A program made the translations under genes and the position numbers. This document shows, in pieces, positions 24,188-27,524 of a stretch of DNA of 64,000 nucleotides. The notes below the pieces were generated by a model. That model was not told where the DNA came from, searched no databases, and worked only from the letters and a program-made list of their open reading frames with translations. This DNA is from Blastococcus saxobsidens DD2. GTDB lineage: Bacteria; Actinomycetota; Actinomycetes; Mycobacteriales; Geodermatophilaceae. The stretch covers positions 4,071,541-4,135,540 of the forward strand of contig NC_016943.1 in assembly GCF_000284015.1 (NCBI RefSeq). The letters are read 5' to 3'. How positions within the stretch are numbered: position 1 is the stretch's first letter; each line of letters begins with the position of its first letter.

Positions 24188-26497
24188 TCAGAGTTTGACG
24201 AGCGGGGCGTACCGGAGGACGAGGCGCTTGGTGCCGCCGGAGCCGAAGTCGACCGTGGCCTGGGCCTTGTCGCCCACGCCGGTCACCTCGACCACCGTGC
24301 CCAGCCCGAAGGCGTCGTGGCTCACCCGGTCGCCGACCTCCACGGAGATCACCTGCCGGTTGCCGGCCCCGCCGCGCAGACCGCCCGTGGAGAGCCCGGT
24401 GGCCGCCACCCGCGTCTGCGCCGACCGGTAACCGGTCGACGGCGCCGGGGCCGGGTCGGTGCGGGCCCAGTGCACGGTCTCGGCCGGGAGCTCGTCGAGG
24501 AACCGCGACGGCGGGTTGTAGGCCGGCTGCCCCCAGCTGGTTCGCACCGTCGCCCGCGAGATGAACAGCCGCTGCCGCGCCCGGGTGATCCCCACGTAGG
24601 CCAGCCGGCGCTCCTCCTCCAGCTCCCGCGGGTCGCCGAGCGCGCGCAGGTGCGGGAAGACGCCGTCCTCCATACCGGTCACGAACACGACCGGGAACTC
24701 CAGCCCCTTGGCGGTGTGCAGGGTCATCAGCGTCACCACGCCGGCTGTGTCCTCCCCGGGTCCCCCGGGACCTGGGATCTGGTCGGCGTCGGCCACCAGG
24801 GAGACCTGCTCCAGGAAGTCGGTGACCGTGCCCCCCGGGCTCGCGGCCTCGAACTCGGCGGCCACCGAGATGAGCTCGTTGAGGTTGTCGACCCGCCCCT
24901 CGTCCTGCGGATCGGTGCTGGCCTGCAGCTCGGCCAGGTAGCCGGTGCGGTCGAGGATGCTCTCCAGGAGCGCGGCCGGACCCGAGCCGGTCTCGACCAG
25001 CTGCTCGAACTCCTCGAGCAGCGAGACGAACTCCTGCAAGGCCTTCAGGGAGCGCGTCGCGAGGTCGGGCACCTCGGCACACCGCCGCAGCGCCGTGCCG
25101 AACGCGATCCGCTCCCGGTCGGCGAAGGACTCGATGCACGACTCGGCCTTGTCGCCGATACCCCGCTTGGGCACGTTGATGATCCGGCGCAGGCTCACCA
25201 CGTCGGCCGGGTTGGCCACCAGCTTCAGGTAGGCCAGCGCGTCGCGGACCTCCTTGCGCTCGTAGAACCGCACCCCGCCGACGACCTTGTAGGGCATGCC
25301 GACGCGGATGAAGACCTCTTCGAACACCCGCGAGGCGTTGTTCGTGCGGTAGAAGACCGCGATGTCGGCAGGCCTGGCCGTGCCCTCGTCGACCAGGGCA
25401 TCGATCTGCTCGGCGACCCAGGCGGCCTCGTCGTGCTCGTTGTCGGCGACGTAGCCCTCGATCAGCTCGCCGTCGCCCGAGTCCGTCCACAGGTTCTTGG
25501 GACGGCGGCCGGTGTTCTTGGAGATGACCTGGTTGGCCGCCTTGAGGATCCGCTGGGTGGAGCGGTAGTTCTGCTCCAGCAGGATCGTCGTGGCCTGCGG
25601 GTAGTCGCGCTCGAACTCGTCGATGTTGCGGATCGTCGCGCCGCGGAAGGCGTAGATCGACTGGTCGGCGTCACCGACGACGCACAGCTCGGCCTGCGGC
25701 ACCGGGCCCTCGCCGGTGCCGGTGAGTTCCCGGACCAGCATGTATTGGGCGTGGTTCGTGTCCTGGTATTCGTCGACGAGCACGTGGCGGAACCGGCGGC
25801 GGTAGTGCTCCGCGACGTCGGGGAACGCCTGCAGGAGGTGGACCGTCGTCATGATCAGGTCGTCGAAGTCCATGGCGTGCGCCTCGCGCAACCGCCGCTG
25901 GTAGAGCGTGTACGCGTCCTTGAGCACCCGCTCCGGCGGGGTCTGCGGCGAGAACGCGTCCTCGTCGACCAGCTCGTTCTTCAGGTTCGACACCTGGTTG
26001 GCGAGGCTGCGCCCCGGGAAGCGCTTGGCGTGCAGGTCCAGGTCGCGGGCGACCATCGTCATCAGCCGGATCGAGTCGCCCTGGTCGTAGATGGTGAACG
26101 ACGACTTCATGCCCAGCTTGGCCGCCTCGGCGCGCAGGATGCGCACGCACATCGAGTGGAACGTCGACACCCACATCGATCGCGCCCGCGGCCCGACCAG
26201 AGCGGCGACGCGCTCCTTCATCTCGCCGGCGGCCTTGTTGGTGAAGGTGATCGCCAGGATCTCCCCCGGCTGCACCCCGCGGGCGCCCAGCAGGTAGGCG
26301 ATCCGGTGCGTGAGCACCCGGGTCTTCCCGGATCCGGCGCCGGCGACGATCAGCAGCGGGCTGCCCTCGTGGACGACGGCGTCCCGCTGGGGGCCGTTGA
26401 GGCCGGCCAGCATCCGGTCCAGCTCCCGCCCCAGCGAGCCGGGTGCGGAGCGCGGCAGGGCGGCGGTGCCGGGGAGGGACTGCTGGAGGCTGCTCAA
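24188..26497 (-). CDS. pcrA: ATP-dependent DNA helicase PcrA/UvrD
   Basis: A superfamily 1A 3'-5' helicase of 769 residues that acts in nucleotide excision repair and in clearing proteins or RNA polymerase from DNA. Walker A is VAGAGSGKTRVLTHR near residue 52, motif II is VDEYQDTNHAQ near residue 240, motif III is VGDADQSIYAFRGA near residue 278, and the late motifs VTLMTLHTAKGLEFP and VGITRARQRL are present. A C-terminal Tudor-like domain ends the protein. The TTG at 26497 gives MSSLQQSLPG with GGAG five bases upstream; a GTG at 26500 would lie too close to that site. Confidence 0.93.
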   Translation of the reverse strand: MSSLQQSLPGTAALPRSAPGSLGRELDRMLAGLNGPQRDAVVHEGSPLLIVAGAGSGKTRVLTHRIAYLLGARGVQPGEILAITFTNKAAGEMKERVAALVGPRARSMWVSTFHSMCVRILRAEAAKLGMKSSFTIYDQGDSIRLMTMVARDLDLHAKRFPGRSLANQVSNLKNELVDEDAFSPQTPPERVLKDAYTLYQRRLREAHAMDFDDLIMTTVHLLQAFPDVAEHYRRRFRHVLVDEYQDTNHAQYMLVRELTGTGEGPVPQAELCVVGDADQSIYAFRGATIRNIDEFERDYPQATTILLEQNYRSTQRILKAANQVISKNTGRRPKNLWTDSGDGELIEGYVADNEHDEAAWVAEQIDALVDEGTARPADIAVFYRTNNASRVFEEVFIRVGMPYKVVGGVRFYERKEVRDALAYLKLVANPADVVSLRRIINVPKRGIGDKAESCIESFADRERIAFGTALRRCAEVPDLATRSLKALQEFVSLLEEFEQLVETGSGPAALLESILDRTGYLAELQASTDPQDEGRVDNLNELISVAAEFEAASPGGTVTDFLEQVSLVADADQIPGPGGPGEDTAGVVTLMTLHTAKGLEFPVVFVTGMEDGVFPHLRALGDPRELEEERRLAYVGITRARQRLFISRATVRTSWGQPAYNPPSRFLDELPAETVHWARTDPAPAPSTGYRSAQTRVAATGLSTGGLRGGAGNRQVISVEVGDRVSHDAFGLGTVVEVTGVGDKAQATVDFGSGGTKRLVLRYAPLVKL

Positions 26498-26574
26498 CAC
26501 TGCTCCGCAGGGGGACCGGAAGCCTTCGGCGCACTCAACACTGCTCCGCAGGGGAACCGGAAGCCTTCGGCGCG
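26493..26574. repeat. 41-bp tandem duplication over the pcrA start
   Basis: Two adjacent 41-base units, 26493-26533 and 26534-26574, differ at two positions. The first contains the pcrA TTG/GTG start codons and its GGAG site. The second duplicates both just upstream, creating a second start-like signal that is in a different frame (41 is not a multiple of three). Confidence 0.85.
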
Positions 26575-26682
26575 TTCACCGCATCACTGTAAGCCGGACG
26601 GGTGACGGTCCCGGCGGGCGCGGAACCGCGTGCACCACCCGTCCCACCGCCGCGGCCGTGGCGCGCCCCGACCGCGGTGTGG

Positions 26683-26688
26683 CAGACT
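26683..26688 (+). promoter_or_regulatory. possible -10 element of the leader peptide transcript
   Basis: CAGACT lies seven bases before the GTG of the FYY leader reading frame. The same hexamer is found at 6-7 bases before folD, acpS, alr, the BrkB gene and the gene at 27451, so it may be a local -10 variant. No convincing -35 is seen. Confidence 0.4.
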
Positions 26689-26695
26689 CCGTTCC

Positions 26696-26758
26696 GTGCC
26701 CGCCACGGTCAGTTTTTACTACGGTCACCGGGATCCGGTGTCCGTCACCGCCGGCTGA
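26696..26758 (+). CDS. FYY leader peptide of chorismate mutase
   Basis: A 20-codon reading frame, GTG to TGA, encodes MPATVSFYYGHRDPVSVTAG. Phe-Tyr-Tyr codons (TTT TAC TAC) lie together at codons 7-9, the end products of the chorismate mutase branch. A small hairpin CACCGG-GAT-CCGGTG (26726-26740) follows the FYY codons, and an intrinsic terminator follows the stop by 16 bases. This is the layout of a ribosome-mediated attenuator. No Shine-Dalgarno is visible; CAGACT upstream suggests a leaderless message. Translation is inferred, not shown. Confidence 0.65.
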   Translation: MPATVSFYYGHRDPVSVTAG

Positions 26759-26774
26759 GCACACGCCGCAACAG

Positions 26775-26812
26775 ACGCCCCGGGCCCGAGAAGCCCGGGG
26801 CGTTTCTCGTTT
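26775..26812 (+). terminator. attenuator terminator before chorismate mutase
   Basis: An 11-bp stem (ACGCCCCGGGC with GCCCGGGGCGT), a seven-base loop CCGAGAA and the T-rich tail TTCTCGTTTCT form the best classical intrinsic terminator in the window. It lies between the FYY leader and the chorismate mutase start, inside the leader rather than after a gene, which implies conditional termination. The rest of 26575-26695 shows nothing else recognisable. Confidence 0.85.
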
Positions 26813-26850
26813 CTGGGGTCTCGGGTCCACGACTTGCCGAGGACACCCTG

Positions 26851-27144
26851 ATGAGCACCCTCACCGTCCCCCCTGCCGCCGGCCCGACGGCGCCGCAGGA
26901 CCCCGCCGAGCGGATCGGCGAACTGCGCGGCGCGATCGACGCCTGCGACGCCGAGATCATCGAACTCGTGCGCCGCCGCCTGGAGATCTCCCAGGAGATC
27001 GGCGCCCTGCGCTCCGCCTCCGGCGGCACCCGCCTCTCGCTCGCCCGGGAGCAGCAGGTGCTGTCCCGCTTCCGCGCCGAGCTCGGCCCCGACGGCGCGG
27101 CGCTGGGGATGATGCTGCTGCGCCAGGGGCGCGGCCGGCTCTGA
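26851..27144 (+). CDS. chorismate mutase, AroQ type
   Basis: A 97-residue AroQ-class chorismate mutase that converts chorismate to prephenate, the first step to Phe and Tyr. The helical AroQ pattern is clear: RIGELRGAIDACDAEIIELVRRRLEISQEIGALR (broken here by description: GELRGAIDACD, then IIELVRRRLEISQEIG), then RLSLAREQQVLSRFR. GAGGA lies eight bases before the ATG. The C-terminus is short, as in the M. tuberculosis Rv0948c enzyme, which needs a DAHP synthase partner for full activity; the neighbour pcrA is also shared with that locus. It has its own attenuator-like leader. Confidence 0.88.
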   Translation: MSTLTVPPAAGPTAPQDPAERIGELRGAIDACDAEIIELVRRRLEISQEIGALRSASGGTRLSLAREQQVLSRFRAELGPDGAALGMMLLRQGRGRL

Positions 27145-27157
27145 AGCAGGACCTCGC

Positions 27158-27451
27158 TCAGGGGCCGCTGCGCCAGACCTGGGAGTCGTCGTCGCCCATC
27201 GCGGCCACCTCGAACACCCGGCCCGGGCAGGCCTCGTGAGCCTCGTCCGCCAGGTCCTTGCCGAGGTCCAGCGCCGCGTCGAGGTCGGCCGCCGCGCACT
27301 CGGTGGTCACCCGCAGCACTGCCCGGTCCGGCTCGCGCCACAGGCGCAGCTCCGGGTCGTCGGGCCGGAGCACCGTGCGGAGGGCGTCGATCGCGGCGTC
27401 GTCCAGCGGAGCCGAGGAGCGGAGCGCGACGGAAAGGGTGTACTCGGGCAC
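27158..27451 (-). CDS. small protein of unknown function
   Basis: I do not recognise this 97-residue acidic soluble protein. It begins VPEYTLSVALRSSAPLDD and contains alternating beta-strand-like and helical stretches (LRLWREPDRAVLRVTTE, DLDAALDLGKDLADEA), so a small alpha/beta fold is plausible. Support for a real gene comes from CAGACT six bases before the GTG at 27451, matching the leaderless pattern of neighbours, and from codon-biased sequence without stops. It converges on chorismate mutase and is divergent from the PIG-L gene. Confidence 0.62.
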   Translation of the reverse strand: MPEYTLSVALRSSAPLDDAAIDALRTVLRPDDPELRLWREPDRAVLRVTTECAAADLDAALDLGKDLADEAHEACPGRVFEVAAMGDDDSQVWRSGP

Positions 27452-27524
27452 CACGCGAGTCTGCGCGACCACGGTCGTGCCGCCGCACCCGCCCCGACCC
27501 CGGCCCGCGCATAGGCTCCGCCGG

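Follow-up and report, generated by a model that had tools for sequence, protein, structure and literature searches.

A Phe/Tyr leader peptide and probable transcription attenuator in front of the chorismate mutase gene of Blastococcus saxobsidens and related actinobacteria

In this work, the region upstream of a chorismate mutase gene was analyzed in a stretch of 64,000 nt from Blastococcus saxobsidens DD2 (NC_016943.1, positions 4,071,541 to 4,135,540), which at its full length is called the window. The best PDB relative of the encoded protein is Rv0948c (2qbv, E 3.8e-20), and the protein also matches PF01817, NCBIfam NF005894, and TIGR01808. It is the single match in the genome of the window, and its subclass is presumably AroQdelta. 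The gene is present in 23 of 23 genomes of the genus and in 109 of 112 genomes of the family, and 121 of the 296 genomes of the class sample match the protein (E <= 0.001). The locus contains the following features, in window coordinates:

24188..26500, minus strand: open reading frame of a pcrA/UvrD-type helicase gene (a putative name, from the first-pass annotation), divergent neighbour
26678..26688, plus strand: -10-like extended promoter element TGTGGCAGACT, with the start codon of the leader 7 nt further on
26696..26758, plus strand: leader peptide ORF VPATVSFYYGHRDPVSVTAG, GTG start at 26696, 20 codons, TGA stop at 26756-26758, putatively leaderless
26714..26722, plus strand: putative regulatory codons TTT TAC TAC (Phe7 Tyr8 Tyr9), with TTT enriched over the pcrA background
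26721..26745, plus strand: hairpin H1 (ACGG..ACCGG-GAT-CCGGT..CCGT), a candidate pause hairpin or anti-antiterminator that starts inside the last Tyr codon
26773..26805, plus strand: intrinsic terminator hairpin with T-rich tail, 11 pairs (13 with two outer ones) and a 7-nt loop; the T-rich sequence from 26803 on is TTTCTCGTTTCTG
26851..27144, plus strand: monofunctional chorismate mutase gene, AroQdelta type, relative of Rv0948c (2qbv, PF01817, NF005894, TIGR01808)

The pcrA gene is a neighbour outside the switch and serves here as the background for codon usage. At its start, a 37-bp repeat AACACTGCTCCGCAGGGGNACCGGAAGCCTTCGGCGC occurs in two copies with 41-bp spacing (window 26496-26573). 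Apart from the genome of the window, only L009 and L064 of the 275 loci compared contain an 18-base core of this repeat.

The first-pass annotation had described a 20-codon frame with TTT TAC TAC at codons 7-9, then a short hairpin, a stop, a terminator stem and its T-rich tail, and then the chorismate mutase gene. The frame, its aromatic codons, the stop, the terminator, and the gene are all in place. The short hairpin is also present, and its position was refined to 26721-26745, within the ORF and ahead of the stop. The leader ORF is probably leaderless, because only 7 nt lie between the end of the -10-like element and the GTG. In 150 of 160 distinct leaders from related genomes, 6 or 7 nt separate the -10-like hexamer from the start codon; 3-9 nt were allowed, and the start of most leaders was picked with the aid of a -10-like box. 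The start codons of these leaders are GTG (112), ATG (46), and TTG (2), and 67 of the 160 are 20 aa long. Such a fairly constant length could point to a conserved small protein with its own function, to which the hairpins would be incidental. Yet the aromatic residues are the only ones common to the families, and the sequence after them tracks the pairing of H1, so that we find this explanation hardly credible.

The leader was followed through upstream DNA from the family (L001-L080 and 20 more) and from the class sample (29 loci, L081-L109, and 60 further places, which take in few of the weaker matches and of the second copies present in some genomes). The families are labelled f1-f108, with f1 being the family of the window. 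The names mycobacteria-like for f2 (g13) and Streptomyces-like for f21 (g35) were inferred from gene likeness and leader form, and 37 named loci were assigned to f1 by default, one of which is titled Frankiales and one is an unverified Bacillus. With L156 excluded as a non-orthologous second copy of the gene, and L019, L047, and L166 as shorter than 200 nt, 185 regions were left. A leader lies upstream of the chorismate mutase gene in 177 of these 185 regions, in 11 families, with 14 of the 177 resting on a looser pattern that has no shuffle control; the counts refer to regions and not to genomes, since some genomes occur in both collections, and the distinct leaders number 160. By family, it was found in 98/98 regions of f1, 16/24 of f2, 2/2 of f3, 1/1 of f4, 1/1 of f14, 4/4 of f16, 25/25 of f20, 26/26 of f21, 1/1 of f24, 2/2 of f34, and 1/1 of f38. 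The conservation of the frame in close relatives, which had been proposed as a check, is thus borne out by all 98 regions of f1 (some genomes counted twice). The leader had rightly been placed before chorismate mutase, but its reach had been underestimated, as it extends across the class. In f2, it is absent from 8 of 24 regions. By eye, two further f2 loci (L091 and L094, g13) look to have a degenerate leader ORF or terminator, which would suit ongoing loss of the attenuator. Examples from other families are VLSWQRRFFYGYRSAVPVGI (f2), VFDQRFFYYGTGSPAAVGRA (f3), MLTQTTFLFTYGNRPTGCHGRAA (f21), MECSRTSRHGALLPPFYGDRARSPLHR (f20), and VLRSRDFFYALTGVRSGLGC (f16).

A strict test was positive in 163 of 186 upstream regions. 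It required both a -10-like box and a short ORF that contains a motif of the F..[FY][GA] type. Of 930 dinucleotide shuffles one passed it, and of 186 reverse strands none did; the motif was derived from the same data, and the 186 regions contain duplicates of some genomes. The first 60 loci yielded 48 distinct leaders, 7 duplicates, and 5 script misses, of which L019 and L047 have no upstream DNA and L007, L039, and L046 carry a leader that is readable by eye. The motif in the 48 distinct leaders is F[YFSAP]YG[HLRY]R[DV]P[VA][SA]V. Its first Phe and last Tyr are invariant, and the middle residue varies (28 FYY, 11 FFY, 5 FSY, 3 FAY, and 1 FPY). The expectation that the FYY codons as such would be conserved therefore did not hold, as only 28 of 48 leaders carry them, and one Phe and one Tyr codon are all that some leaders retain.

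Hairpin H1 keeps its position relative to these codons. In 138 of the 145 leaders in which both hairpins were found, no more than 3 nt lie between its start and the first base of the last aromatic codon; the remaining 15 of 160 had none at the threshold of the script. Covariation was assessed by five measures, two of them weak. Of 51 representatives drawn from nine families, with no family giving more than 12, the 46 with H1 at most 3 nt off were used, a choice that favours pairing. In this set, 89.3% of cells pair, compared to 77.4% in shuffles (0 of 500 reach it), and the covariation score is 0.338 versus 0.144 in shuffles (sd 0.014; 0 of 500), and at most 0.122 when H1 is slid. By the two weak measures, 6 of 10 pairs are changed on both sides, which 11 of 500 shuffles reach, and there are 16 further pair types, which 81 of 500 shuffles reach. 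Furthermore, one pair of H1 is changed on both sides in a single locus (L024). H1 is more stable than its synonymous recodings in only 22 of 127 leaders, and 11 of these 22 are all 11 mycobacteria-like leaders. In the alignment, H1 is conserved with compensatory changes across families. Compensatory stem changes had been proposed as a test, and they turned up both in H1 and in the terminator, where three Klenkia loci (L020, L021, and L037) have two pairs changed on both sides, from C-G and G-C to A-U.

Within families, the part of the peptide that follows the aromatic codons is well preserved. This would also suit arrest by the nascent peptide, in which an FxYG(H/Y)RxPV peptide, possibly aided by a bound aromatic metabolite, would itself stall the ribosome and tRNA charging would play no part. 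Between families, however, the downstream peptide differs (GHRDPV, GYRSAVPV, GTGPAGCHG, GDRARSPL, ALTGVRSG), whereas H1 persists with compensatory changes, and because of this difference the idea of the peptide as signal was dropped. The choice of a rare codon likewise points to decoding and argues against peptide arrest, which we regard as quite improbable. The Phe codons of the leader motif are TTT in 160 cases and TTC in 65 (n = 225), compared to 22 TTT and 1342 TTC (n = 1364) in pcrA. For Tyr, the motif has 37 TAT and 149 TAC (n = 186), and pcrA has 74 TAT and 1262 TAC (n = 1336). This background rests on stretches of pcrA at 97 of the leader loci and likely leans toward the longer loci of f1 and f2. 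Trp is found in only 9 of the 160 chorismate mutase leaders, which fits an enzyme of the Phe/Tyr branch.

Between the leader and the gene, two terminator-like sites were counted in 26400-27200, compared to a mean of 0.1 in shuffles, and the candidate is the one at 26773-26805. Overall, the terminator hairpin is stronger than 95% of shuffles in 118 of 158 distinct leaders. The proportion is 79 of 80 in f1, so that the terminator, too, is conserved in close relatives as had been anticipated, and 26 of 26 in f21. The mean number of T in the 10 nt after the hairpin is 3.6 in f1 and 3.9 in f21. By the same ungapped test, the terminator is weak in f20 (4/25), f2 (3/15), and f16 (0/4), although the f2 stems carry a bulge that this test penalises. 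For this reason, f20, f2, and f16 may use a different mechanism. One such mechanism would be translational attenuation, in which the leader and its hairpins would leave termination alone and instead affect mRNA stability or the ribosome-binding site of chorismate mutase. The poor terminators of f20 and f16, some without T tracts, would agree with it, as would the leader-gene interval of f20, which folds in several ways. On the other hand, a strong hairpin followed by T-rich sequence stands between leader and gene in f1 and f21, and the predicted folds of the window leave the ribosome-binding site uninvolved; we therefore think translational attenuation unlikely and return to control of termination.

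Attenuation at the terminator calls for an antiterminator, which the first-pass annotation could not derive convincingly by eye. One was derived here, pairing 26734-26746 with 26774-26784, and the statistical support for it is mixed. Three predicted features belong to this part of the leader:

26734..26746, plus strand: 5' side of the candidate antiterminator (the 3' arm of H1), with its partner predicted at 26774-26784
26752..26768, plus strand: small hairpin around the stop codon, from prediction alone, within the antiterminator loop
26774..26784, plus strand: predicted 3' side of the candidate antiterminator, part of the terminator

When a ribosome was modelled as stalled at Phe7, Tyr8, or Tyr9, with three assumed footprints each, H1 was absent from all nine folds, and 26733-26748 formed 9-10 pairs with 26773-26787. 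With the ribosome past the stop, the terminator alone remained in the model, and H1 and terminator both formed when no ribosome was present. Across 122 distinct leaders, the stalled fold contains 9.1 pairs between the 3' arm of H1 and the terminator, compared to 4.1 in shuffles. The values are 10.7 versus 4.4 in f1 and 11.3 versus 4.0 in f21, with no gain in f2 (4.8 versus 5.5) and little in f20 (3.1 versus 2.1). The stalled fold is barely more stable than shuffles overall (mean z -0.6; f1 -0.4, f21 0.0). The duplex energy of the H1 3' arm with the terminator 5' arm was rejected as proof of the antiterminator; it beats shuffles in 2 of 127 leaders and synonymous recodings in 0 of 127. When terminators were swapped among four family groups, the exchange cost nothing in three of them, and only in the f21-type group was the group's own terminator the best partner (-16.5 versus -12.1 to -14.8). 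The modelled antiterminator is the expected one, and it is plausible but unproven. In most Streptomyces-like genomes (L110-L155, f21), the segment GGTCGTGCTGCTTGAGCAACTGACAAGCGACTTCCCAGG between H1 and terminator has few changes; it uses T-ending codons and can form a small stop-codon hairpin in the antiterminator loop.

We hypothesize that the leader works as follows. Transcription would start at or adjoining the leader GTG, as the spacing to the -10-like element suggests, so that ribosomes would load on a leaderless mRNA and translate it behind RNA polymerase. A shortage of charged tRNA-Phe or tRNA-Tyr would stall the ribosome at codons 7-9, where it would cover the 5' arm of H1, which then could not hold. 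The freed 3' arm of H1 (26734-26746) would pair with the 5' arm of the terminator (26774-26784), and chorismate mutase would be transcribed. When Phe and Tyr are plentiful, the ribosome would reach the stop and cover the 3' arm of H1, and the terminator would form. Without translation, both H1 and the terminator would form and transcription would end. It would mean that the leader probably switches chorismate mutase on when Phe or Tyr is short. At the level of sequence, there is a leader ORF with codons for the end products, and an intrinsic terminator lies between ORF and gene in the window, f1, and f21, and a weak one in f20, f2, and f16. We put the probability that the chorismate mutase gene is preceded by a ribosome-mediated transcription attenuator at roughly 85%.

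A covariance model built from 46 f1 leaders has a single strong match in the genome of the window (E 1.5e-35), and its next match elsewhere has an E-value of 0.07. In 296 genomes of the phylum, it has matches in 36, a count that is not a census because some known leaders were missed (e.g. G129, G184, G234). Matches in other classes without an adjoining aromatic frame (e.g. L217, L219, L225) were set aside as look-alike terminators. Some of the other matches in those classes, such as MRRFFGGRYFFYGGDDPA and MKRYFWFFGTSGSPEADAS, are leaders in front of class I DAHP synthase, and the five proteins tested behind such leaders carry PF00793 and PF18152. One of these DAHP synthases has a match in 187 of the 296 phylum genomes, and the 30 loci closest to it were taken (L237-L266). 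Of these 30, 26 are preceded by a frame of 12-32 codons in which a stretch of eight residues includes three or more aromatics, compared to 22 of 600 shuffles. By comparing the two sets of leaders, Trp is much more frequent before DAHP synthase (20 of 25 distinct leaders) than before chorismate mutase, which suggests, as far as codons can tell, that the common-pathway enzyme reads three amino acids and the Phe/Tyr-branch enzyme two.

Eight of the genomes examined have no chorismate mutase leader, namely those of three f2 genera and G260. A YWRF- or YFWF-type frame stands before class I DAHP synthase in all 8 (L267-L274), a count without a shuffle control, and a leader before class II DAHP synthase was found in 0 of these 8. 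In the genome of the window, class I DAHP synthase (L275) has no such aromatic leader within 700 nt upstream, and no comparable leader was found up to 700 nt upstream of class II DAHP synthase (L190), prephenate dehydratase (L191), or prephenate dehydrogenase (L192). A frame before L190, of 14 to 45 codons depending on the start, was rejected, as it seems to be no more than the 3' end of the gene before it. In mycobacteria and corynebacteria, chorismate mutase and DAHP synthase form an activating complex. These chorismate mutases are weak alone and are activated by DAHP synthase. Since the two form such a complex, control of either enzyme would set the same flux. There may be a phylum-wide aromatic module, placed before chorismate mutase (Phe/Tyr) or before class I DAHP synthase (Phe/Tyr/Trp), the codons of which follow the enzyme and which, when lost at one gene, is carried by the other; we hold the odds for and against this to be even.

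Several described systems resemble the leader, and they are compared here as far as the accessible text of each source extends. In Corynebacterium glutamicum, the aroR leader with Phe-Tyr-Phe precedes aroF, which encodes DAHP synthase (PMC4046766, PMC11802643, PMC7356990). Its attenuation is described in the available text of PMC11802643 as responsive to Phe and not to Tyr, whereas that of PMC7356990 has aroF controlled by both. An actinobacterial Phe/Tyr leader peptide, attenuation, and the aromatic pathway are common to both systems. They differ, by description and not letter by letter, in that aroR controls DAHP synthase, whereas the gene behind the leader of the window is chorismate mutase, so that this leader does not belong to the aroR-aroF type, which stands upstream of DAHP synthase. 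The DAHP synthase leaders of the 8 genomes without a chorismate mutase leader have the same arrangement as aroR, as the latter is described in those texts. The pheL-pheA system of Escherichia coli likewise has a Phe leader peptide and an attenuator on a gene with chorismate mutase activity; unlike here, the mutase is fused to prephenate dehydratase, the phylum is another, and only Phe-charged tRNA is involved, in the accessible text of PMC11802643. The trpL1 leader of Streptomyces lividans is also a leaderless actinobacterial leader peptide followed by hairpins, but it has Trp codons and precedes trpE (PMC8079986, available text).

The surveys at hand leave room for a Phe/Tyr leader. An RNA-seq-based table of 2021 for S. 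lividans contains eight leaders and none for Phe, Tyr, or chorismate mutase in the accessible part of PMC8079986, and the 2005 comparative survey of actinobacterial attenuators, in the text obtainable, states that no RNA structures were seen in Actinobacteria ahead of the operons for phenylalanine or tyrosine (PMC1262725). The words "chorismate" and "phenylalanine" do not appear in the accessible text of the mycobacterial leaderless survey (PMC4633059), nor do "Rv0948c", "chorismate", and "phenylalanine" in that of PMC13236596. An Rfam scan of 26000-27500 of the window gave no T-box and, up to E 10, six matches to unrelated families, none of which reached its gathering score. No description of a chorismate mutase leader in actinobacteria was found in the accessible open-licence literature, and within that literature the earlier remark that no such leader had been reported for a stand-alone AroQ gene holds. 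The Phe/Tyr leader of chorismate mutase is thus of a known kind, ribosome-mediated attenuation, and apparently represents an undescribed family.

A leader of this kind in 11 families would fill the Phe/Tyr gap left by the actinobacterial surveys, and it would suggest how these chorismate mutases are controlled at the level of the gene. Moreover, it would offer a Phe/Tyr sensor for the design of actinomycete strains. The split between Phe/Tyr before chorismate mutase and Phe/Tyr/Trp before DAHP synthase predicts to which amino acid each gene answers.
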